A DNA stretch of 64,000 nt from a virus. The DNA is taken from positions 1 to 64,000 of IMG/VR virus record IMGVR_UViG_3300005329_000002; one strand, 5' to 3'. Below are positions 2,961 through 64,000 of this stretch, in pieces. Below the pieces are notes generated by a model, which was given only the letters and a program-made list of their open reading frames with translations, ran no database searches and was not told the DNA's origin. How positions within the stretch are numbered: position 1 is the first letter of the stretch; each line of letters begins with the position of its first letter. Both the position numbers and the translations under genes were made by a program.

Positions 2961-4381
2961 TACGTCACCGTGATCGTGCCGGGAGTCCTCTTGGAAGTTG
3001 AGCCTGTGGTTTGGTTTCCAACCGGGCTTGTAATTGACACGTCCGCGATCCCTGGCAAACCGAACACTGCATCGACAAGTCCAGCAATCATCAGCGTCTC
3101 GCCAATTCCAAGCGCGTTAATGTAATCCTGAATTGCTTTCTGCACGTTCGGTGTAACATCGGTCAGCGTGTAGGTGCCGGACGTTGTTACGTCTGCCGTC
3201 ACGTTTGTTGAAACTGCCGTGAAGGTAGTAACATGAAATGAAATGTTTGCCACGTCGCGATCCGCAAGCGCCTGAGCTACAGCCGCCTGAGTTTCGGGTG
3301 TAGGAACGGTTCCTCCTGGGCCTGAAATTCTGACAGTCGTATGCCCGTTCTGCGGAGTTCCAAGGTTGTCATTCGGAAATACAGTTGCCTGATCGACTCC
3401 TACCACGTCCTCAGCCCACTCTTTGATATCGGCGGGCGAGCCTGATCCGGGGTTCTGAATGTGCGCTAGCAATTCCTGTCTGTAATCCTCAGTGTCTTGA
3501 GGATCGGCACCGCCTGTAAACGGCGCGGCGTTTGTCACTTCAGTCAGTGTGGACGGGCCGTTGGTGATGATTGTAATTGTTCCCGCCACTGCATTTCCCT
3601 CGACGCCTTCCTCTTCCGCCGCTGCCGTCACTGACAATTTGTTTGCCGTGTTGCTCGTCGGCGCAAGAGGATTTCCGTTCACCGTTGCATCCGTGATGTT
3701 GTCCGTATAGGTCGTAGTCGTGTTGTCTGCAATCGTCGTGACAAGCCTGAAATCCCCGGTGCCGTTCTTGCGTCGGTAAATCTTTCTCGACGTTGTTCCT
3801 GCACCGCCGAGCGGGATCGCTGTGAGGTTGGCCTGCTGGTTTACCGGACTGATGGAGTTTGAAATTACTGAAGGAAGAGTTTCACCGCCCGTGGTTACGA
3901 AAGTAACGACGTACTCGTACAGTCCGTTGAGGTTTCCTGCCGTCGCGTTAATTGCTGCGGTCGGTGCAGTTGGAGTTCCAGGGTTCGGGATCGTCCCGTC
4001 AATCGTCGTGAGAAAGTAAATTACGTCAAGTCCGCTGCCAGGGTCGTATCCAACTTCAGTGCCGATGGGAACGTAAGTGCCACCCGCTCCGGTAAACGTC
4101 ACTGTCCCTGAAGATTTCACACCAGGATCGATGGGCTTTCCAAATTCATCGCCGTAGCGAATCAGCGATTGGAGCGCCGCTGTCTGAATGAACAAGTCCT
4201 CAAGCAAAAGCTGGTTGCCGAGGAAGATATTTTCAAACTGACCCGCTTCAATGTCGAGCAGGATACGCAGGACTCCATCGACGCCTGTGTAAACGTCTGG
4301 AATCTCTGCCTGAAATGCAGCCAGCATATCGGCCAGAATTTCATCCCTTGACCGATGGAACGTTTCAGGTGTAATTGGCAT
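2960..4381 (-). CDS. Baseplate J-like wedge protein
   Basis: 473 aa. N-terminal RSRDEILADMLAAFQAEIPD and the central GTVTFTG...VPIGTEVGY followed by DYRQELLAHIQNPGSGSPADIKEWAEDVVGVDQATVFPND are hallmarks of Baseplate_J (P2 gpJ/Mu gp47 family). An Ig/FN3-like insert (about residues 140-240, YEYVVTFVTTGGETLPS) is typical of these proteins. Located between the W-like gene and the tip protein, as in other contractile tails. Confidence 0.8.
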   Translation of the reverse strand: MPITPETFHRSRDEILADMLAAFQAEIPDVYTGVDGVLRILLDIEAGQFENIFLGNQLLLEDLFIQTAALQSLIRYGDEFGKPIDPGVKSSGTVTFTGAGGTYVPIGTEVGYDPGSGLDVIYFLTTIDGTIPNPGTPTAPTAAINATAGNLNGLYEYVVTFVTTGGETLPSVISNSISPVNQQANLTAIPLGGAGTTSRKIYRRKNGTGDFRLVTTIADNTTTTYTDNITDATVNGNPLAPTSNTANKLSVTAAAEEEGVEGNAVAGTITIITNGPSTLTEVTNAAPFTGGADPQDTEDYRQELLAHIQNPGSGSPADIKEWAEDVVGVDQATVFPNDNLGTPQNGHTTVRISGPGGTVPTPETQAAVAQALADRDVANISFHVTTFTAVSTNVTADVTTSGTYTLTDVTPNVQKAIQDYINALGIGETLMIAGLVDAVFGLPGIADVSITSPVGNQTTGSTSKRTPGTITVT

Positions 4382-4392
4382 TCAACCCTCCC

Positions 4393-4797
4393 TTACAGCG
4401 GTAGTGACAAAATGAATTCTTCTTGGTCGGGTGACGCAGACGGTTCACCCGCGCCATCCGGAAGTGTATTAACGGAGTAACCGACAATTACACCCCAGCT
4501 TCGGCCATCACTCGATATGGTCAACTGAACCTCTCCGATTTCAATTTCGTCCATATCGTCCAGAGCTTCGCGGACGTACAGAGGAATCTCGATTTCAGCA
4601 CGAGCGGGGTCATGCTGTAGTACAGCATGAAGGCGGCTCCCTAGCCGCTTGTCAGGATCATAGACCCATGAGCCGCGAGGGATTTTCAGCCGGTTACGAA
4701 TGCATTGCTCGATCCGCGCCGTCCCTGAAATTCCAGAGAGGTCGCGATTAGCGGAGAAGATCAGATCACCATACTGGCTAATTGCAAGATCAAACAC
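4393..4797 (-). CDS. Baseplate wedge protein, gpW/gp25-like
   Basis: 134 aa. IEQCIRNRLKIPRGSWVYDPDKRLGSRL followed by REALDDMDEIEIGEVQLTIS matches the gp25/DUF2634 pattern (short beta domain with a Leu/Arg-rich helix). Lies 11 bp before the J-like gene and starts at the stop of the V-like gene, so translation is probably coupled. Length is normal for the family. Confidence 0.7.
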   Translation of the reverse strand: MFDLAISQYGDLIFSANRDLSGISGTARIEQCIRNRLKIPRGSWVYDPDKRLGSRLHAVLQHDPARAEIEIPLYVREALDDMDEIEIGEVQLTISSDGRSWGVIVGYSVNTLPDGAGEPSASPDQEEFILSLPL

Positions 4798-5588
4798 TAC
4801 GAACCTCCCACTCCAATGTGTGCGCCGCCACCACTGCTGCCGTCACTTCCCTGCGGCGGTAGAATTTCATTGACGTAATCAAGGCTGTTGATTACACCCA
4901 AGCATCGAGGGAGCCTTCTCGTTCCCCGCTCAAACGCGATCAGAATTACATCGCCCACGTCTGGAACTCCAATCGAGTTACTTGTGAGCTTGCGAGCAAG
5001 AGGAACAATTTGCGTAGCGCTTGAAGGCTCAAAACGAATGTCATCGAGAAATTGAAATGATCCAGCGTTAGTAGCTGCGCCTGTAACCCAACGAACATTT
5101 CCACTTGAATCAACGTCAACGCGACCATGAACGTTGGAAGTATTGTCGCCTGCTGCTGTGCCGAACCCTCTTTGGTTAGCTGGCCTGTAATTCGTCGGAA
5201 GTGTGAACATGATTTCGTTGACCGCTGGCGCTGCCACTGAAACCTTCTTAATCAGACCTTTCAATTCAATTTGTCCGAACGGGTCGAAACGAAATGCGGG
5301 AGCTTCAAACGGCGCTCCAAAGGATTGCCAACTGTTCTGAAATGCTGGCTCGCCTGCTGCGCCAACTGCATGCCACGAATCGAACGTTCCATTGGGAACG
5401 TAGTAATTTATATCGTCGATGAAATCGACAAGCGGAATGCACTGATCGCCAAGCTCGGCTACCCACACGAGCCTGCGCGTCGTATCCCTTTTCAGCACCT
5501 TGGCCGTCAAGAACGTCTGCCCAACGTCGGACAGCATCGAGCCGACCAATGTTCGAATGCTTGAAAAATCTTCGTCTGTCAGTGGCAT
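4797..5588 (-). CDS. Baseplate spike / gpV-like OB-fold protein
   Basis: 263 aa. Short N-terminal helical part (LVGSMLSDVGQTFLTAKVLKRD), then beta-rich segments and a late region (VGDVILIAFERGTRRLPRCLGVI) resembling the OB fold of gpV/gp5 (a statement of fluid exchange plus a GDxVLI strand). Ends in a Gly/Ser-rich tail. Its position between the hub gene and gp25-like gene supports a spike assignment. Homology is weak by eye. Confidence 0.6.
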   Translation of the reverse strand: MPLTDEDFSSIRTLVGSMLSDVGQTFLTAKVLKRDTTRRLVWVAELGDQCIPLVDFIDDINYYVPNGTFDSWHAVGAAGEPAFQNSWQSFGAPFEAPAFRFDPFGQIELKGLIKKVSVAAPAVNEIMFTLPTNYRPANQRGFGTAAGDNTSNVHGRVDVDSSGNVRWVTGAATNAGSFQFLDDIRFEPSSATQIVPLARKLTSNSIGVPDVGDVILIAFERGTRRLPRCLGVINSLDYVNEILPPQGSDGSSGGGAHIGVGGS

Positions 5589-7915
5589 TAGATGTAAGCC
5601 CTCATTGCGATTCGGTCGCTTCTGTAATTGATCGGCAAAATGAGCGGGCCAGGATCGCTGCCCATCGAAATCACCTTACCGTTACCCGCGTACACTGCCA
5701 CATGGCCCGGATAGCTCGGTGTTCCCCCATAGAAGATCAGATCGCCAGGGTTCAGTCCGTTGATCGAGTGAATTGCAGTTCCGTTTGCGACCTGAGTTCT
5801 AGTGTTGCCGATCGGATGGTAATTTTGGTTTGAGGGATCGTCAATTCCGCAACTCTTGTAGCACCATTCAGCGAACGAGCTACAGTCCAAATGCGCCGGA
5901 ACATTCGGCGGCGGTGAAAAATCAGCGGCTCTCTGCCCTTGGTCGTAATCAATTTCATCGCGCCGATAGTAGCCGTACATTGCGACGGCACGAACGGCTG
6001 CGCGTTGTTCATTTCTTGTCGGATTCGGCCCGAGCCCTCTGAAAATTCGCATGCATTCCTGCGCGGACTGTGGAAGCTCTCTAGGGACGGGAGAGTCGCC
6101 TTGGTTGCCTTCAGAGCCACTACCGTCTCGCTGCGCCTTAGCAGCCTCCTGAGCGGCTTTGAGAGCATCGTTGACTTGCTGTAGATAGGTGTTCTGAACC
6201 TTCGCCTTGACTTCCTTCGCATATCGCGTCGGAACGGTTGTCGGAGTTTCCCCGGCGTAGTGATGCCCGTAATAGGAAACGCCCGCCCAAATGTCAGCAT
6301 CGCGGCCAGAATCTCGTACCGCAAGTTGTAATTTATTTCTCAGCGCTCGTGCTGCCGCCCAAATATTCGAGGGAGGATGCCAGCGCCCACCGCTGTATTG
6401 GTTCTGATTTCCAGTCTTGAATTTATCATCGGCCCAATGCTTGTACCCGAGGCTGTAAAGCTGCATGATGCCGACAGCAAACGTTTCGCTCGTGTATTGC
6501 CCAGGCTCGTTAGCGAAAATTTCTTTCCACTGCTCATGCGTCCTACCGAATCGATCCTTCGGTGTACCGACAGGCGGATCGTCCGCGTATTTACGATCAC
6601 GGTTGACCGCTTTCCACTGATACCAGGGCACACGATCTTCACCCGGCCCGCCAAGCGCTCTGATGTTGTTGAAAGAAGTTTCCTGATCGCCAATTGCAAG
6701 TAGTGTTGCCAGGAAGAGAGGGAAATTCCAAGGGCCATGCCATTCGCGAGCGGCCTTAATGAAATCGTCAGCGTAAGGAACTTCTAGCTCGACGCCTAGC
6801 TGATTACCAACGTCCTTCTTTGGCTCAGCGGTTGTAAACGATGGGTCGGGAGGAATTCTCCGCGACAACGCCATCCCGCGCTCACGCAATCGAATTTCCT
6901 GCACGAAGCCGTCTGGCCCTGCCGACATTCGTGTTCCGACAACGAAGTAGTCACCGTACAAATTCATTTCTGGAATTCGCACTCGCGCTACTCGGTTCTG
7001 CCGGATTGGGAAACCAGGATCACCAACCGTCAAAGTAATTTCAACCGAACCGACTTTGCCCTCAAAGATTTCTTCCCATGCTTCCTTGAGCGCCTGCTTG
7101 CGGTTGTGAACTTCCTTGTCGAAAATGATCTTGCGCGGTTTCTTGATCCAGTTCTTGACTGTGGGATCGTCAGCGGTAACTAGAAATCCGCTGTCACCCT
7201 TCTGGCCGTAAACCCAAACCTCGCCAAGCCTTCCCTGCGTCGTCTTTTTCACTTGCACATTTTCAACTTGCTGGTACAAGTCCTTGATCCGCGAGGGATC
7301 GTTAGACTTCGGCTTGCCAAAGAAATAGGACGGAGCAGCCTCGTAATGCAATTTGCCCGCATTGAGTTGCCCCTGTGGCCCGAACCAAATCCACATTTTC
7401 TCTTTGCGATAGAGACGATTCCAGAATTCCCAATACGTCTCCGATCCATCAGTGTATTGAGACTTCTTGACTTGAATTCCTTTTGAGAGGTTCAGCCGTC
7501 CGCCAATTCCAAGTTCACGCGCCTGTTCCTGCACGAGTTTCCATGCGCGAACATGACGGTACTGCTTCGGCGGCAAAGTGGAATCAGTCGCGAGTGAGGA
7601 CAAGTCCCGTCCTGTAATCGTGACGACGCCCATTTCGTTGTATGTAATTTCATCAGCCACGCCCGTCACCATGTAGCTCGTTCCGCGCTGGCTGGAATCG
7701 ACACCGAAAATCTGAACGCGAACCTCGTTGTCTCTTTTCAGCGCTTTGATTAGATCGCCGTCAGGATCGCCGATGTTAATTGAAAATGGGTCAGAGTCGT
7801 TATCGAGCGACGTGTCGATGTAGTATTCCTCGATGGCGCGGATAGTCCTGGGCACATAGCCCTTTCCTCTCCACGGCATTGTAATTATCGCTCTAACGTT
7901 CTCGACCGATGGCAT
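5588..7915 (-). CDS. Tail hub (gpD/gp27-like) fused to transglycosylase-like and NlpC/P60 lysin domains
   Basis: 775 aa. Residues 1-360: late-control-D/hub fold (FSINIGDPDGDLIKALKRDNEVRVQIFG; VTGVADEITYNEMGVVTITGRDLSS). Residues about 385-590: helical region resembling a lytic transglycosylase (LLAIGDQETSFNNI, TFAVGIMQLYSLG, GVSYYGHHYAG). Residues about 645-775: NlpC/P60 cysteine peptidase with DCSSFAEWCY (catalytic Cys), GDLIFYGG and GHVAVYAGNG (His). A three-part hub-lysin probably opens the wall as the tail penetrates. Domains are seen; activities are inferred. Confidence 0.75.
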   Translation of the reverse strand: MPSVENVRAIITMPWRGKGYVPRTIRAIEEYYIDTSLDNDSDPFSINIGDPDGDLIKALKRDNEVRVQIFGVDSSQRGTSYMVTGVADEITYNEMGVVTITGRDLSSLATDSTLPPKQYRHVRAWKLVQEQARELGIGGRLNLSKGIQVKKSQYTDGSETYWEFWNRLYRKEKMWIWFGPQGQLNAGKLHYEAAPSYFFGKPKSNDPSRIKDLYQQVENVQVKKTTQGRLGEVWVYGQKGDSGFLVTADDPTVKNWIKKPRKIIFDKEVHNRKQALKEAWEEIFEGKVGSVEITLTVGDPGFPIRQNRVARVRIPEMNLYGDYFVVGTRMSAGPDGFVQEIRLRERGMALSRRIPPDPSFTTAEPKKDVGNQLGVELEVPYADDFIKAAREWHGPWNFPLFLATLLAIGDQETSFNNIRALGGPGEDRVPWYQWKAVNRDRKYADDPPVGTPKDRFGRTHEQWKEIFANEPGQYTSETFAVGIMQLYSLGYKHWADDKFKTGNQNQYSGGRWHPPSNIWAAARALRNKLQLAVRDSGRDADIWAGVSYYGHHYAGETPTTVPTRYAKEVKAKVQNTYLQQVNDALKAAQEAAKAQRDGSGSEGNQGDSPVPRELPQSAQECMRIFRGLGPNPTRNEQRAAVRAVAMYGYYRRDEIDYDQGQRAADFSPPPNVPAHLDCSSFAEWCYKSCGIDDPSNQNYHPIGNTRTQVANGTAIHSINGLNPGDLIFYGGTPSYPGHVAVYAGNGKVISMGSDPGPLILPINYRSDRIAMRAYI

Positions 7916-32279: not shown

Positions 32280-32506
32280 TTCATCACCATCCTTCCGTTG
32301 AAATACCCTGTCGGCTCAGTCCGCAAGTGTTCAGGATCACCGAACTTCTTCTCCATTGAAATTACTTCGTCAGTGCATTCCCAATAGCCAGCGTCACCAT
32401 CCTTTCTCAGAGCTTTCATGATCGCACCGACCGCTTCCGACATTTCTTCGCCTAGCTCGTCCTTGTCTGTACCCCGCGCTTCGATCCTGAATCTAGTGAT
32501 GCCCAT
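32234..32506 (-). CDS. Small hypothetical protein
   Basis: 90 aa, MGITRFRIEARGTDKDELGEEMSEAVGAIMKAL: alternating beta-alpha pattern with an acidic helix. Its ATG lies inside the end of the NADAR gene, indicating coupled translation. Not recognised. Confidence 0.5.
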   Translation of the reverse strand: MGITRFRIEARGTDKDELGEEMSEAVGAIMKALRKDGDAGYWECTDEVISMEKKFGDPEHLRTEPTGYFNGRMVMKWQEISVTEPTNSRH

Positions 32507-32981
32507 AGAACGCCTGCCTTCGAATTTTCATTAGGAGTCGGCCCAAGTGGTTCTCACCACGATACAAGCCGTCAACAATTACTTTTCCCCAAAACGTGTC
32601 GCCCCAATTGTTCCCCTCGATCAATCGCTCGGGATAAGTGTCGAGAAGCATTTCCAAAAGCGTCTCGTTTTCCTCCGACTTTCCCAGGAACTTCTTTTTC
32701 AAAAGCGATTCCATTACGTCGATCCGCACGTTCTCCCAATCGTGGCGAAGCTCGACCTTTCGGCCCATCCGTTTTGCTGCGCCAGGAGTTTGAGCCATAG
32801 CAATTTCAGACTTCGCACCGAGGTTATGCGTCTTTGCGGCCTGAAAAGCATGTTCGACCGTCGGGAATGGAATGTTTTCTACCGTGATAGTTACCGGGTA
32901 GAAATTGGAGAGAAAGGCGTAATCGCCTGAAAAAGAGGTAATCGAGTTTTGGTAGCCAGGAACAGGAATTTCACTACCCAT
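32493..32981 (-). CDS. NADAR/YbiA-family protein (predicted N-glycosidase of ADP-ribose or riboflavin intermediates)
   Basis: 162 aa. Signature motifs in order: DYAFLSNFYP (residues about 20-29), FPTVEHAFQAAKT, KRMGRKVELRHDWENVRIDVMESLLKKKF, LIEGNNWGDTFWGK. These are diagnostic of YbiA/NADAR. Known members cleave riboflavin precursors or reverse ADP-ribosylation, including of DNA and in anti-phage contexts. Here it could protect phage DNA or NAD pools. The ATG is nested in the stop of a nuclease-like micro-ORF. Confidence 0.8.
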   Translation of the reverse strand: MGSEIPVPGYQNSITSFSGDYAFLSNFYPVTITVENIPFPTVEHAFQAAKTHNLGAKSEIAMAQTPGAAKRMGRKVELRHDWENVRIDVMESLLKKKFLGKSEENETLLEMLLDTYPERLIEGNNWGDTFWGKVIVDGLYRGENHLGRLLMKIRRQAFYGHH

Positions 32982-33075
32982 GAAACGGCACCGCCGAGTG
33001 GCATACAAAGGTGTCGCCGTCGATCACCCGATCAACTACTGCGTCAAGGTGAGTTGTCAGCAAGGCAAGTCTCAT
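32974..33075 (-). CDS. 33-aa ORF resembling the first strand of a thermonuclease (SNase) domain, possibly truncated
   Basis: ATG with a perfect AGGAGG seven nt upstream. MRLALLTTHLDAVVDRVIDGDTFVCHS contains V.RVIDGDTF, the start of staphylococcal-nuclease domains, but a stop follows at residue 34 and the NADAR ATG overlaps it. Either a decayed nuclease or a translated leader peptide that couples to NADAR. Confidence 0.45.
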   Translation of the reverse strand: MRLALLTTHLDAVVDRVIDGDTFVCHSAVPFHG

Positions 33076-34204: not shown

Positions 34205-35757
34205 CCCCGCCTCCAAACCATCCGAGTTTTGTAATTGAGCATAAACGGGGAGAACACCATCCCCGCCAATAATGCTCTCCCGCTCAAACCGAAAGCATCT
34301 ACCTCTCGGTTCGTGAAAAAAGATTATCACCGCTGTCAAGGGTAGGACAAGGGTGGGCAAACAGGATAAAGGATAATTTCAAAAAGCTCCCATTTCGCGG
34401 GGTTCCCTCCGTTTCGTTGACCCCTCAGAAAGCCCCCGGCTACATGCGCGTGGGGCACGAGAAGCCTTCCTGTGCATTCCTAGACCCCATGATCTATCGG
34501 GTATGGAGTCCCTTGGCACGAGAGAGAAAGCCCCCGCCTTTTTTGACGAAAAATCCTGTGTATAAGCGCCCCCGCAGTGTGACGCTGAAAAAGCCCTGCA
34601 AATTACAACTTTCCGGTGATAGCAAGATTGAAATTTATTGGGATGGTTGAGCCAAAACTCATATGCTTTTGAAATTGTATATAGCATCGATATCAAGGTT
34701 TCCGAACGACCGTTAGGGTGAGCTTTTCAGAGGGTCGATTTCAGGGAATCTGCGAAGGGATTGAAATGAAATTCTGCGGGGAGTCCTAGGGTCGAATCCC
34801 TGTTCGATCAAGTTTGAAATTCCAGGGTAGCGCTAGGGGTAGTTCTCCCTCTTCGATCCCCTTAGGTTTTTTCTACTAGTGCAGTGTGTTTGATTGCCCC
34901 GAAACAGGAACGACAAGGGTAGGGATACAGTCTGAAATCTAGGCTGCTCTAGCGGGGTTATCTCCCTACTGTTCTAGGGGTATTCGGGTGATCCCTCGCG
35001 CCGCGAAATTGGGTCTACTTGAAATCCGGATTTTCCCTAGGCCGCATGCGGGATTATGGGTAGTTGTAATTGAGCCCTAGCGGGCATGTTTTCGGGGTAT
35101 CTGAGGGTAGGCCGTTTCTATCGACTCTTGAAATGAAATTAGAGCTTTTCTCCGCGCTATCGGAAGCGCTTGAAAACGCTCCACCCGAAAGAGGGATTAG
35201 GCGGATTTCCCTCGGTGCCGATGGGTCAAGCTCAATGGTTACTTGGCACGAGGATACGAGGATTCCCCTAGGACGCTCTGAGAGCGTTTCTAAGCCCGCG
35301 AAATGGTTCGGCCTAGCTCGACTCTTGCCTAGCCGGAATCGAAGGCTTACGCGCCGAATCAATCGCGATTCCCTCGCGCGCGCGGACGTGGCGCGGACGA
35401 TGCGCAACCCGAACTAACTCGCAACCCTCTTTGAAATTTGCTACTCTCTGATTTCCCCTTCGGGGGAACGCGCCAGACATAGCAGGAACCGGAGCAGGGA
35501 TCAACGGCGACCGATTGCTCACTAGGCCGCTAAATAGAGTCTCCGAGCGAATACCGGGAAATGCGCAAGTGAAGTGAAATTCCCTTCAGGCGGAACGAGG
35601 ATTCGACCGCGCTGGAAATTGGAATTTCCCCTAGTAGATTCGGGGTAGGCCGTTCAAGTTTGAAGCTTGCGGAACCGCGCACGGTCGAAGAGGGAGAAAC
35701 CGAAATCCGTACAGGCGTCTAAGAGCCGAATTCTGCTCGGGGGAGAAAAGTAACTGA
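34205..35757. other. Non-coding strand-switch region
   Basis: About 1.55 kb between the leftward block and the plus-strand island. Frames here lack ribosome sites and recognisable products (a plus frame from 35133, MKLELFSALSEALENAP, is the best of a poor set). It holds many CTAG sites (about 14 between 34.48 and 35.64 kb), numerous GAAATT motifs, a TTCCCC/GGGGAA hairpin near 35451-35467 and GGAAATT GG AATTTCC near 35614-35629. Candidate replication origin or regulatory hub. Confidence 0.5.
34323..34350 (-). promoter_or_regulatory. Possible promoter for the leftward block
   Basis: Minus strand TTGTCC, 16 bp, GATAAT, 120 nt upstream of the first leftward gene; a TTGACA also lies in the spacer. 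Weaker match than the early promoter family. Confidence 0.35.
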
Positions 35758-35803
35758 ACGATCATTCTCAGCGTTTCACTAGCCGCTGTTCTCTTCGGCT
35801 GGA

Positions 35804-36137
35804 CGCTGAGACTCAATAGAGCGATTGACCGAACCATTCCGACAGAAAGGTTCGATCATGACCCAGCGAGATTTTGAATTCATCGCTTCGATTTTGGCAG
35901 AAGCCGAAACCATGATTCACGAAGCTCACGGAGATATCGGCGCTGACCGAATCCGCAATTTCATTCGTCAGCGTTTCGAAGATGAACTAGCGAAGCGGCA
36001 TCCCCGTTTCGACCGTGGCCGATTCGACGTAGCCGCTTCACCTATCGCCAATGCCGAACTACGTCAGCGGATTATCGATTCGCTGAACAAGTAAGCCCAA
36101 TTCGAAATTCGGTCAATCGTTCTATTGAGTCTCAGCG
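35804..36137. repeat. Inverted repeat 1, flanking the first island gene
   Basis: Arms 35804-35833 and 36108-36137, 30 nt with one mismatch, left arm beginning CGCTGAGACTCAATAGA. The left arm is followed by the ribosome leader CCGACAGAAAGG; the right arm lies between this gene and the AAA gene. Confidence 0.9.
35858..36094 (+). CDS. Small hypothetical protein of the plus-strand island
   Basis: 78 aa. ATG after CCGACAGAAAGGTTCGATC, the leader shared with other early genes. Helical, mixed charge (EFIASILAEAETMIHEAHGDIGADRIRNFIRQRFEDELAKRHP). No family recognised. It is bracketed tightly by inverted repeat 1. Confidence 0.65.
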   Translation: MTQRDFEFIASILAEAETMIHEAHGDIGADRIRNFIRQRFEDELAKRHPRFDRGRFDVAASPIANAELRQRIIDSLNK

Positions 36138-36161
36138 TTTCATCCGACAGAAAGGGAACAA

Positions 36162-37337
36162 GTGTCTAAGGAATTCCGATACGGAACCAAGCGCTACATG
36201 ATCGCCGAACTAGTCGAAAACGGGCTCAATCGAATTTCCGTTTTCCAGAAGCTTCGGCCAATGGTAGAGCAGCAAATTCCGCCAATGGTTTTCAAGCGAA
36301 ACGTTAAGGGTCAGGGTCGCCAGCCTAAACCGCTTTCGGAGCAATTGATTGAACTCAAAAACGAGATCAATCGCGTGTTTGCTCTACTCGGTCATGCCGA
36401 CGACGGAAGCTTGACCGCTGACGATTCCGAACCAATCGCGGACGTTGAAATTCCGGAAGAGGAAGAGCTAGAGGAAACGCAAGAGGAAGAAGAAGAAGAG
36501 CGGAAGCCCGTAGCGTCAGGGAAGGTCAAGATCAAAAACGAGCTTGAGAAATTCCTTCGGCGCGTCAGAGAAATTCGGAAGTTCTGCGAAGATAGAGCCG
36601 AGCTTTCCGAACCAATCGACTCGATTTCAATTCGTCCCGCGATGGCTGCGGGTCAATTGATTCCAGCGGGCATTCCTGCCGACGCTCTCTTGGATTCAAT
36701 GACTATGCATTGGCCAAAAGACGTGCGCAGGGATGCGGGTATCTCAGACTTCGATTTCGTTTCGTTCTCGCTTGAAATTCTTGCGAAGCGCGGAATTACT
36801 GAAGTGATGGGAAAGCCTGTTCACAAGCTCTTCGGTTATGCCTTGATTCTTGCGGAGTGCCGACAACCAATCATGTTGATCGGCCCAGCCGGAACGGGGA
36901 AGAGTCACCTAGCTAGGCAACTAGCGGATTACCTTGAAATTCCCTACAAAGAAACACCGATGAGTCCTGGCGCGACGCGCGGAGACTTGCTCGGGCGCCA
37001 CACTGTAGGCGGATTCATTCCAGCCGCATTTCCTGAAATTTATGCGGGTGGCGGGATCTTCAATTTCGAGGAAATGGACGCTAGTGATTCCTCGCTTTTG
37101 ATCGTGCTCAATAACGCTCTTGCGGGAAACAAGCTCTACAATTCCGCGAACGGTGAAGAGTATGAGCGAAGCGAGGATTTCATCGCAGTATCGACCGCTA
37201 ACACCTTCGGCCTAGGCGCGAATCGCGACTACACTGCACGAGAGCGATTGGACGCCGCAACAATTGACCGATGGCGGATGGGTCGAATTTGGATTCCGCT
37301 GGACGAGAACGTCGAGGAATCCTTGCTCTACAACTAA
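36162..37337 (+). CDS. MoxR/CobS-like AAA+ ATPase
   Basis: 391 aa, GTG start after CCGACAGAAAGGGAACAA. Residues 1-140 are helical with a Glu-rich stretch (EEEELEETQEEEEEE). The AAA domain begins about residue 230: Walker A GPAGTGKS, Walker B GGIFNFEEMD, sensor 1 AVSTANTFG, arginine-rich end RERLDAATIDRWRMG. Closest in type to CobS/MoxR ATPases, which work with a VWA-domain partner; such a partner is the next gene. Substrate unknown. Confidence 0.8.
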   Translation: MSKEFRYGTKRYMIAELVENGLNRISVFQKLRPMVEQQIPPMVFKRNVKGQGRQPKPLSEQLIELKNEINRVFALLGHADDGSLTADDSEPIADVEIPEEEELEETQEEEEEERKPVASGKVKIKNELEKFLRRVREIRKFCEDRAELSEPIDSISIRPAMAAGQLIPAGIPADALLDSMTMHWPKDVRRDAGISDFDFVSFSLEILAKRGITEVMGKPVHKLFGYALILAECRQPIMLIGPAGTGKSHLARQLADYLEIPYKETPMSPGATRGDLLGRHTVGGFIPAAFPEIYAGGGIFNFEEMDASDSSLLIVLNNALAGNKLYNSANGEEYERSEDFIAVSTANTFGLGANRDYTARERLDAATIDRWRMGRIWIPLDENVEESLLYN

Positions 37338-37384
37338 CCAATTAGCCGCTTGAGAACAGCGGCTAGTGAAGCGCTGAGAATGGA

Positions 37385-38499
37385 CGATTAGTTGAGCTTC
37401 ACTGAGGGCTAACCTTCGGTCGAATGAAATCCGACAGAGAGGAAATTCTCGTGAAGCGAATCGTCAACACCTTCCCTGCTAAGTGTCGCGATTGCGGCGG
37501 AATCCTTCCAAAAGGATCGACCGTAAAATGGGCTAAAGGTTTCGGGGTTACTCACCTAACGTGTCGCAACCCTGAAATCGTCAATAAGCCAACCAATCCG
37601 CCACCTAGCGCTCAGTCAATTTCTAAGCCTGCCAAACAGTATGATCCGAATTGGGTTATCGATTGGCCAGACTTGAAAGAGACTCTTCGGAACTTCGCTT
37701 TTAAGAGTGAATTTCCGAAAGGCATGAATCAGTCACTCAAAAATTACTTTCATGGGAATTTCTCCTTTGGTAAGGAATGGACGGGTGGCGATATCGAAAA
37801 CCTCAAGCGCTACATTACTGAGGGTTATCGAACTACTGCAATTCAAGGGTTGGCTGGACTTGTTCCGCCAATTCGCGAAAAGCGTAGGCTCAAATACGGG
37901 GAAGAGGGAGATGAATTCAACTACGATATTGCAATGTCCGGAGACGAAAATTACATGTCTTTTTGGACGAAAAGAGAGCAGATTCCCGGCGTTAAGCTTT
38001 CACTAGAGCTTGACGGTTCAGCGGGATCAACTGACGCTCTAATGAAATATCAACGTTGGATGGCACAATCGATTTACGCGCTGGAAGCTGCGGGTGTCGA
38101 TTGCGAGGTTGAAATCTTCACTCTTTCGCGCAATTTGTTTAGGCCGCAAGCGGCTATTGCGAGAACAGCGGTTCGAGTGAAAAACAGCGGTGAAATTGCA
38201 GACTTCGCGGGAATCTCCGCGATGTTCTCCCCGCTTGCTTTTCGCGGAATCATGTTCGGCTGTTTCTCGCTTCAAGCTCACGAAATGGGCCTAAGTCAAG
38301 TCGGCCACGGTTCAGGCGTCACTAACCGCTGGCGCTGCTATTACAATCCGGAAATTCACGCGATTGTTTCGGATTGTGATTGGCACGCAACTACGTTCCC
38401 CGAAGAGCAACATACGGAGCAATTCAAGCAAGCAATCCGCGATATGAAATCGCAAGTAGGAGACTGAGGGCTTAGCCCTCAGTAAAGCTCAACTAATCG
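37385..38499. repeat. Inverted repeat 3, flanking the VWA-like gene
   Basis: Arms 37385-37412 and 38472-38499, 28 nt with one mismatch, left arm beginning CGATTAGTTGAGC. The right arm also forms the 3' half of a local hairpin CTGAGGGC/GCCCTCAG (38464-38482) directly after the stop codon. Confidence 0.9.
37451..38467 (+). CDS. VWA-like protein (CobT-type partner) with N-terminal zinc finger
   Basis: 338 aa. GTG start chosen because the shared leader CCGACAGAGAGG sits 8 nt before it; an in-frame ATG at 37424 lies within the leader. CRDCGG (residues about 13-18) with a later Cys forms a probable zinc finger. Around residue 185 LELDGSAGSTDALMKYQRWM resembles a D.S.S MIDAS loop, followed by a beta strand (DCEVEIFTLSRN). 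With the upstream ATPase it forms a CobS/CobT-like pair. Confidence 0.65.
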   Translation: MKRIVNTFPAKCRDCGGILPKGSTVKWAKGFGVTHLTCRNPEIVNKPTNPPPSAQSISKPAKQYDPNWVIDWPDLKETLRNFAFKSEFPKGMNQSLKNYFHGNFSFGKEWTGGDIENLKRYITEGYRTTAIQGLAGLVPPIREKRRLKYGEEGDEFNYDIAMSGDENYMSFWTKREQIPGVKLSLELDGSAGSTDALMKYQRWMAQSIYALEAAGVDCEVEIFTLSRNLFRPQAAIARTAVRVKNSGEIADFAGISAMFSPLAFRGIMFGCFSLQAHEMGLSQVGHGSGVTNRWRCYYNPEIHAIVSDCDWHATTFPEEQHTEQFKQAIRDMKSQVGD

Positions 38500-38549
38500 A
38501 GTGAATTTCATTGAGCGCTTCCCTAACTCTGACAGAAGGGAAACGCAAA

Positions 38550-38729
38550 ATGACACGTTCCGAATTCCAGAATCGTTGTGACGAAATCGCGACTGAGGAA
38601 GCGAATGAAAATTGGGATTCCGCTTCCGTACTTCGCAGGATCGCAGGCGAGATTGGAACGGTAGCGCTCGACTTCGACGCTGACGTTTCAATGCATGCCG
38701 ATTTCGGAGAGGTTATCGAGAATGCTTAG
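38550..38729 (+). CDS. Small hypothetical protein
   Basis: 59 aa, ATG after CTGACAGAAGGGAAACGCAAA. Helical acidic protein (TRSEFQNRCDEIATEEANENWDSASVLRRIAGEI). Its end overlaps the next gene by 8 nt. Not recognised. Confidence 0.6.
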   Translation: MTRSEFQNRCDEIATEEANENWDSASVLRRIAGEIGTVALDFDADVSMHADFGEVIENA

Positions 38730-38958
38730 GGAACTCGATAGCCGCGAAAACGATCGAATTACGGTTCGGCTTTTGTGGAACGATTCCGCAAAAATCGATC
38801 CGACAGTGAGCGAATTTCAAGTGAAGGTGATCGATGCGAAAGAGGGAGAGCGTTTCTCAATTTCACTCGATACCTTCAACGCTGCTAGGGAGGCTTATTT
38901 TCATCCCTACGGTGTCCGCGATTCGCTACTGAAAAGCGGGAAAGTAGCAGCAAACTAG
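38722..38958 (+). CDS. Small hypothetical protein
   Basis: 78 aa, ATG nine nt after GGAGAGG within the previous gene. Beta-rich start (DRITVRLLWNDSAKIDPTVSEFQVKVIDAKEGERFSISL) then a helix. Paired with its neighbour inside inverted repeat 4. Not recognised. Confidence 0.6.
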   Translation: MLRELDSRENDRITVRLLWNDSAKIDPTVSEFQVKVIDAKEGERFSISLDTFNAAREAYFHPYGVRDSLLKSGKVAAN

Positions 38959-39256
38959 AGCGCTCCAATTCCAGGGAAGCGCTCAATGAAATTCATTCGG
39001 CAGAAAGGGAATTCCTAACCGGGCTAGGGTAGCTACCGGAGGGTCGCCCCTGCGCGCGTATCGGGGAATTCCATTTCAAATTTCAGAAGTATTTACCTAG
39101 GATTTCGCTGGTATTTCGCGCCAGTTTAACGTCAGAATTTCAGGATCGGAATGAACGCCGAATTGAATGCGGCGCGGTGCAAACCAACCATGCATTCGGC
39201 CAACTGAAATTCCGGAAGGTGCTGAAGCTCTGAACATGGGCCACTTGCTTTAATTT

Positions 39257-39354
39257 GAGCCGCAATTGCGTTCCGGTCTGATCCGCCTGGAAGGGGAAGC
39301 TTCCTGCGCTCTGCGGCGGGAGCGCGTGAGGCGATCTAGGCGCAATTGCGGCTC
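39257..39354 (+). ncRNA. Candidate structured RNA (or DNA structural element)
   Basis: Nested pairing over 98 nt: P1 GAGCCGCAATTGCG (39257-39270) with CGCAATTGCGGCTC (39341-39354), 14 bp perfect; P2 GATC(C)GCCT (39280-39288) with AGGCGATC (39329-39336); inside, hairpins GGAAG/CTTCC (39289-39304) and GCGCTC/GAGCGC (39306-39325). A three-way junction results. No family recognised; strand undetermined because the fold is symmetric. Confidence 0.5.
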
Positions 39355-39598
39355 GGGTGAGCTATACCCCCTCGCGACGGCCTTCAAACCCCTCAGACGG
39401 GCTTAGGTGGCCTTGTGCATGCCATCCCTGCCTGCGCATTTCAACGTACAGGCACATAGGAGCCTTTCTGACGCCCTCCTAGCTCGGCTGCGGGTCAGGA
39501 GTCGCACGACTGATCGCGGAGCCTTAGAAGGGCTTACAGGCGCTCGGCGCGGCGCTCGGTTTTTCGGCGCTCGACGCATACCCCACCCAACGCAAAGA

Positions 39599-39620
39599 GC
39601 CGGGTTTCCCCGGCCCCTCG
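39599..39620 (-). terminator. Intrinsic-terminator-like hairpin ending the rightmost leftward operon
   Basis: Minus strand GGGGCCGGGGAAACCCGGCTCTTT: GCCGGG/CCCGGC stem with a short loop, followed by CTCTTT. It lies just beyond the stop of the 32-aa gene, where the leftward early block should end. Confidence 0.5.
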
Positions 39621-39654
39621 CGTTTCTCCGACAGAAACTTTGAAATTTAGTCGG

Positions 39655-39753
39655 CTAGCACTCCCAATTGCCTACATTGAACGCGAGCCAGTCCTGAAAT
39701 GTGCGCATGTGCTGGAACGTGAACCACAGGCATTCCCACGAGTAGCGGATCAT
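39655..39753 (-). CDS. 32-aa micro-protein rich in tryptophan
   Basis: ATG overlaps the upstream TGA (ATGA) and follows CGAGG. MIRYSWECLWFTFQHMR then FQDWLAFNVGNWEC: four Trp and two Cys in 32 residues. Last gene of the leftward early block. Real on the strength of coupling only. Confidence 0.4.
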   Translation of the reverse strand: MIRYSWECLWFTFQHMRTFQDWLAFNVGNWEC

Positions 39754-63856: not shown

Positions 63857-63940
63857 GCTTTATCTCAGTGCCCTCTCTGATTAGTGTGGAGGGAATTTCA
63901 ATTATTACTCTGCTGAGACAAAGCTTGAAATTCCCTCCAC
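63857..63940. repeat. Interleaved inverted repeats (pseudoknot-like) before an island-type leader
   Basis: Pair A: GCTTTATCTCAG (63857-63868) with CTGAGACAAAGC (63913-63924), one mismatch. Pair B: GTGGAGGGAATTTCAA (63886-63901) with TTGAAATTCCCTCCAC (63925-63940), perfect. The arms alternate A-B-A'-B'. Directly followed by CTCCGACAGAAAGGG, the leader used in the plus-strand island. Confidence 0.75.
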
Positions 63941-64000
63941 TCCGACAGAAAGGGATTCCCTGAACCGGGAACGCCTGACTTCGCAGGATAGTAGCGTCTC
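63941..64000 (+). promoter_or_regulatory. Plus-strand leader without visible gene, cut by the window edge
   Basis: CCGACAGAAAGGGATTCCCTGAACCGGG strongly resembles the orphan leader at 38997-39023 (GGCAGAAAGGGAATTCCTAACCGGG). A plus-strand gene probably begins beyond base 64000. Confidence 0.4.

Follow-up and report, generated by a model that had tools for sequence, protein, structure and literature searches.

RNase III cuts the polycistronic early messenger RNA (mRNA) of phage T7 into separate mRNAs. In the ribosomal RNA (rRNA) operons of Escherichia coli, boxA (for its function in rRNA, see PMC4807359) recruits NusB/NusE and has been proposed to retain the leader strand up to the emergence of the trailer; it is critical that the leader-trailer helix exceed 17 base pairs (bp) (PMC10250234). 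Here we analyze a stretch of 64,000 nucleotides (nt), positions 1 to 64,000 of IMG/VR virus record IMGVR_UViG_3300005329_000002 (hereafter the window, which makes up most of the 66.7 kilobase (kb) record), in which the genes of a small plus-strand island are enclosed, singly or in pairs, by long inverted repeats. The pattern of these repeat arms suggests that they act in RNA as leader-trailer helices closing each cistron; judging from sequence, we think it probable that they form panhandles on one polycistronic, rRNA-operon-like transcript that is likely tethered through boxA and Nus factors and cut by RNase III.

A previous sequence-only reading of the window had described four inverted repeats around the genes of this island (genes 1 to 5, gene 2 encoding an ATPase and gene 3 a VWA-like protein), and we find all four where it placed them:

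35763 to 35793, plus strand: left arm of pair I1, the outer pair of a nested unit holding gene 1 and the ATPase gene; pairs with 37352 to 37382
35803 to 35833, plus strand: left arm of pair I2 (gene 1), 24 nt upstream of the start codon
36108 to 36138, plus strand: right arm of I2, 13 nt past the gene 1 stop codon
37352 to 37382, plus strand: right arm of I1, starting 14 nt past the ATPase stop codon
37385 to 37412, plus strand: left arm of pair I3 (VWA-like gene), 2 nt downstream of the I1 right arm
38472 to 38499, plus strand: right arm of I3, 4 nt past the VWA stop codon
38498 to 38524, plus strand: left arm of pair I4 (genes 4 and 5), sharing 2 nt with the I3 right arm
38973 to 38999, plus strand: right arm of I4, 14 nt past the gene 5 stop codon

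The arms had been given as 30, 31, 28 and 23 nt long with at most one mismatch; the mismatch limit holds, and the lengths are corrected to 31 nt (I2, around gene 1 and nested within I1), 31 nt (I1, around genes 1 and 2), 28 nt (I3, around the VWA-like gene), and 27 nt (I4, around genes 4 and 5, with a perfect core of 23 nt), each with one mismatch. When matches are scored +1 and mismatches -2, pairs I1 to I4 score 28, 28, 25, and 24, no other pair in the window exceeds 16, and 20 first-order Markov shuffles of the entire window gave at most 17; the four pairs are far beyond chance. Each pair has a private sequence, as had been noticed, and insertion sequence ends were rejected as the identity of the arms on that ground. 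Adjoining units abut, with a 2 nt gap between the I1 right arm and the I3 left arm and a 2 nt overlap (38498-38499) between the I3 right arm and the I4 left arm. The order originally described for every junction (right arm, left arm of the next unit, ribosome leader) is seen at the junctions that follow the ATPase and VWA genes. It is not seen between genes 1 and 2: there the leader comes directly after the I2 right arm, because I2 is nested within I1.

When the ATPase, the VWA-like protein, the tail sheath, and the whole polymerase were each used as a single query against viral contigs, no relatives came up. A conserved polymerase fragment retrieved four close relatives (G001-G004, 75-77% identical in the fragment), in which no ATPase or VWA match was found and among which G004 alone carries one arm pair; a four-member terminase alignment searched against IMG/VR yielded 72 loci, of which about 60 are 46-78% identical. 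Scanning for inverted repeats with gene-sized gaps revealed like arrays in L054, L058, L070, L072, L078, L096, and L097 as well as G004, and searching with the aligned island ATPases brought in L196 and longer pieces of other relatives, with L069/L197 also armed. In all, 11 uncultured phages, the window's phage included, carry 30 pairs with scores of 17 or more. The control, 994 kb of mostly unrelated phage contigs that were the yield of a helicase alignment, contained three weak pairs (score 18) and no others. The arms are restricted to the island: no further pair scoring at least 17 was found in fetched pieces covering most of the remaining genomes of three relatives (68-74 kb). The island ATPase alignment found no match in bacterial genomes, two cultured phages lack such arms at their MoxR-type ATPase loci, and Rfam searches found no match, the island units being protein-coding rather than rRNA. 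Nesting like that of I1 and I2 recurs in L198 and L054, the median gap between consecutive units across islands is 2 nt, and adjoining arms overlap by 14 nt in L195 (7179-7192) and by 10 nt in L097 (3460-3469), so that neighboring helices share bases. In L097 an arm pair also surrounds a different ATPase and VWA pair (3460-6065) with no tblastn match to the window's proteins; the ATPase/VWA pair thus recurs at this place in non-matching versions.

The ATPase unit and the VWA unit, each present in seven phages with its arms at equivalent positions, were compared between phages: left and right arms of the same phage score 14-30, foreign pairs, with all phages cross-tested, score at most 12 (mean 6.2-6.5), and among the 5040 possible left-right assignments the true one ranks first in either unit. 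Left-arm identity between phages is 0.32-0.65, which is near random (shuffled arms average about 0.46), whereas the relatives' ATPases are 42-65% identical to the window's. Arm sequence has turned over completely and complementarity has been retained; since the arms swap sequence yet stay matched, pairing itself appears to matter, and the covariation that had been proposed as a check on the four repeats comes out in favor of a pairing function.

This turnover bears on two other meanings that had been suggested for the repeats. If they bounded invertible or mobile DNA cassettes, a layout of long inverted repeats superficially like that of invertible segments would be explained; yet the enclosed genes are co-directional in the mapped islands, homologous units are constant in order and orientation while their arms vary freely between relatives, and each pair has its own sequence. 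No nearby recombinase gene was identified in a search that was not exhaustive, and we regard cassettes as extremely unlikely. Alternatively, the arms could be remnants of hairpins split when genes landed in their loops. Local hairpins before the ribosome site do separate counter-oriented genes in G002 (L033 2340-2700) and in the same region of G003, where two junctions have a common outer stem and different inner stem sequences; these may represent an alternative solution or the ancestral state. Such hairpins at island junctions, and the gain or loss of small genes inside nested arms (I2 in the window, L198, L054), are what split hairpins would leave, and the suggestion may stand as an account of origin; but remnants should decay, the arms of homologous units have instead been replaced with complementarity intact, and no empty site was found. 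Gene insertion leaves that retention unexplained, and as a full explanation we consider it very unlikely.

The remaining suggestion, mRNA panhandles coupling 5′ and 3′ ends, fits the data well. Specifically, i) the divergence of the arms in seven phages is compensatory; ii) read as plus-strand RNA, the single mismatches of the four window pairs are U.G, G.U, C.A, and G.U, and sense-strand mismatches favor G.U over A.C by 25 to 13 under a strict extension rule (one-sided p = 0.036) and by 33 to 14 (p = 0.004) or 41 to 15 (p = 0.0003) under looser rules, whereas a DNA-only mechanism predicts equal numbers; iii) left arms mostly end 20-40 nt upstream of the start, immediately before the ribosome leader, and 4-53 nt separate the stop codon from the right arm, both positions being near, yet outside, the usual ribosome contacts; and iv) the minimum-energy fold of the 3.6 kb RNA contains all four helices, with 31 of 31, 28 of 31, 27 of 28, and 24 of 27 pairs formed. 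The G.U excess supports action in RNA without proving it. Inverted copies could also be kept alike as DNA, with no function in RNA, if gene conversion or template switching in replication homogenized them; the perfect 30-nt pairs and overlapping arms of L195 and L097 are in keeping with this. Such homogenization leaves unexplained the placement of arms outside start and stop codons, their restriction to a single island, the G.U excess, and the boxA-like motif described below, and we judge it very unlikely as the whole explanation.

In 8 of 12 islands, a CTTTGAAAAC- or TTTGACAAC-type motif resembling boxA lies no more than 60 nt before the first coding left arm. The motif is found in 1.2% of background windows and at 1 of 19 internal left arms; the binomial p of about 3e-13 is a descriptive value, because the motif list is post hoc and, in L060, where no arm was found, the leader start was used instead. 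The CTTTGAAAAC core itself is that of rRNA boxA, as at least 117 genomic stretches, among them ones from Firmicutes, Acidobacteria, and Nitrospira, have it 71-131 nt upstream of AGAGTTTGATC, the 16S start region. Several islands carry an earlier boxA-like copy as well, and in L058, L060, L097, L196, and L197 the RNA between both copies forms a folded domain with an inverted repeat of its own closing it. This noncoding stretch of 100-250 nt (for example L058 at about 920-1210, L060 at about 750-990, and in L196 and L197) has no Rfam match and may be a small RNA in its own right.

Duplexes of 20-37 bp are classic substrates of RNase III. Taken together with the family layout (promoter, boxA-like site, leader RNA domain, second boxA-like site, and then repeated arm-cistron-arm units with a terminator at the end in most islands), the arms suggest the following scheme, in which single-unit transcription, boxA function, RNase III cutting, and any effect on stability or translation are what we infer rather than observe. 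The island would be one transcription unit opposite in direction to the rest of the genome, and the stretches flanking each gene or gene pair, complementary over 20-37 nt, would pair to form a panhandle that loops the cistron, with abutting neighbor helices able to stack. A Nus complex bound to boxA would keep the first left arm near RNA polymerase until the right arm arrives, at most 2.5 kb later. RNase III would then cut the duplexes, whose length equals that of rRNA processing stems, to give separate mRNAs with their ends paired and shielded and their start and stop sites open to ribosomes. Processing by RNase III and a boxA-linked aid to folding both seem likely on sequence grounds. Stated most specifically, this would be a phage operon on the rRNA plan, in which a boxA-tethered polymerase pairs cistron ends cotranscriptionally, RNase III frees closed-loop monocistronic mRNAs, and the arms are free to vary as long as they match; we offer this full version tentatively, with somewhat less than even confidence.

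Several observations weigh against the scheme. A good boxA next to the first arm is absent in the window, L054, and L198, and in L196 the boxA-like motif lies 131 nt from the first arm; the clearest match in the window, CTTTGAAA at 35429, may belong to a promoter, and this is the main gap in fitting the model to the window. The boxA motif list was compiled after the leaders were seen; the G.U excess is marginal under the strict rule and could reflect strand-biased mutation; and the overlapping arms of L195 and L097 cannot all pair fully together, so that helices may compete or shorten. A simpler alternative would dispense with RNase III cutting and boxA tethering and have the closed loops affect translation or stability, for instance by insulating cistrons, recycling ribosomes, or blocking exonucleases or antisense RNA. 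All RNA-level evidence fits such loops equally, and the three islands without boxA near the first arm sit more easily with them; on the other hand the boxA-like enrichment would need another explanation, and duplexes of 20-37 bp are typical RNase III substrates, examples of such substrates being those of icaR (PMC3868564) and rRNA (PMC10250234). We consider panhandles of this simpler kind unlikely, though far from negligible, and continue to prefer a processed, boxA-linked operon.

The genes of the island, and the other elements associated with it, are as follows:

35429 to 35447, plus strand: CTTTGAAATTTGCTACTCT, a possible promoter on sequence resemblance alone, with a -10 TACTCT at 35442 to 35447
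35839 to 35850, plus strand: start-associated leader CCGACAGAAAGG of gene 1
35858 to 36094, plus strand: gene 1, 78 amino acid residues, no family match
36144 to 36155, 37431 to 37442, and 38529 to 38540, plus strand: further copies of the CCGACAGAAAGG leader
36162 to 37337, plus strand: gene 2, AAA_5 (MoxR-type) ATPase, 391 residues, GTG start (Pfam AAA_5 E 4.5e-12, PHROG 249)
37451 to 38467, plus strand: gene 3, VWA-like protein (DUF7192, Pfam E 4.2e-10), GTG start past the leader motif
38550 to 38729, plus strand: gene 4, 59 residues, no family match
38722 to 38958, plus strand: gene 5, 78 residues, with relatives in the islands of L097, L196, and, weakly, L195
39510 to 39564, plus strand: terminator-like hairpin with a T run, 561 nt past the last right arm

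Both the ATPase and the VWA-like protein have homologs in the relatives, and for the latter no matching phage was found in INPHARED. The main genes elsewhere in the window lie on the minus strand, to which the island runs counter, and include tail genes, terminase, portal, a DnaE-type polymerase, RecA, DnaB, and primase; in cultured phages, the top matches to the terminase share about 24% identity with it. Near the island, the product of a minus-strand gene at 32496-33008 carries a NADAR domain (Pfam E 3e-24); G004 has a relative. The stretches flanking the island (34700-35760 and 39010-39750) are long, lack a convincing gene, and are rich in GAAATT/AATTTC, words that look frequent in this genome.

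The CCGACAGAAAGG leader, or a close form of it, precedes genes 1 to 4 and also minus-strand genes at 40-43 kb, so the leader is common to both strands and the bracketing arms are not. Between 40200 and 42950 on the minus strand, several small genes each have a promoter of the TTGACA-N17-TAGAGT type followed by the leader; near the window end, a perfect 16-nt hairpin (63886-63953) is directly followed by a plus-strand leader; and after the last right arm a leader-like sequence (38997-39008) without a convincing gene, the same being true of L196, looks as if a unit had been lost. CTTTGAAATTTGCTACTCT resembles TTTGCTAYTNT sequences upstream in several relatives and was not picked up by a promoter scan. 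Most islands have a terminator-like hairpin with a T run past the last right arm, the role of the one in the window being uncertain given its distance, and the sole terminator candidate between units lies within L097 coding sequence. The arms themselves were rejected as intrinsic terminators; their halves are a gene length apart, and most islands have those separate T-run hairpins past the last arm.

If the processed-operon interpretation is correct, protein-coding messages would be packaged singly in private leader-trailer helices, a layout known from rRNA; the islands would offer many natural cases for studying how end pairing affects the stability and translation of bacterial mRNA, and would bear on boxA complexes as long-range aids to RNA folding beyond rRNA. 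They would also provide a search rule independent of sequence, tandem gene-length inverted repeats on one strand, with which to look for such operons in other genomes. Our searches, which covered part of the open-licence literature, turned up no described system with an equivalent layout. T7 uses local hairpins between genes, whereas the island arms pair across a gene. The start-associated and extended start-associated sequences (SAS and ESAS) of Cluster K mycobacteriophages (PMC3203893) likewise place one short conserved motif at many gene starts, some of which also have inverted repeats upstream, but in ESAS these repeats are 17 bp long, lie close together (spacer mostly 4-13 bp), and share a common consensus, whereas the island arms are private and flank genes; the island is not an ESAS system, because its arms are neither local nor of shared sequence. 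In Staphylococcus aureus icaR (PMC3868564) the mRNA 3′ untranslated region similarly pairs with its own 5′ untranslated region and the duplex is an RNase III substrate; there, however, 7 nt pair over the Shine-Dalgarno and repress, whereas the island arms pair over 20-37 nt, serially along an operon, and repression of the icaR type does not apply, because the left arms end upstream of the leader and leave the Shine-Dalgarno free. Bacterial rRNA operons are the closest parallel (PMC10250234, PMC4807359). The island is not one, because its contents are mRNAs: its units are protein-coding cistrons, their processing is something we infer, and in some islands, that of the window included, boxA is not beside the first arm. 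Both nevertheless string units together in tandem, and every unit is sealed by a long helix of its own, about 27-44 bp in E. coli rRNA versus 20-37 nt in the phage islands, whose sequence varies between relatives; in most islands a boxA-like core lies upstream of the first helix.

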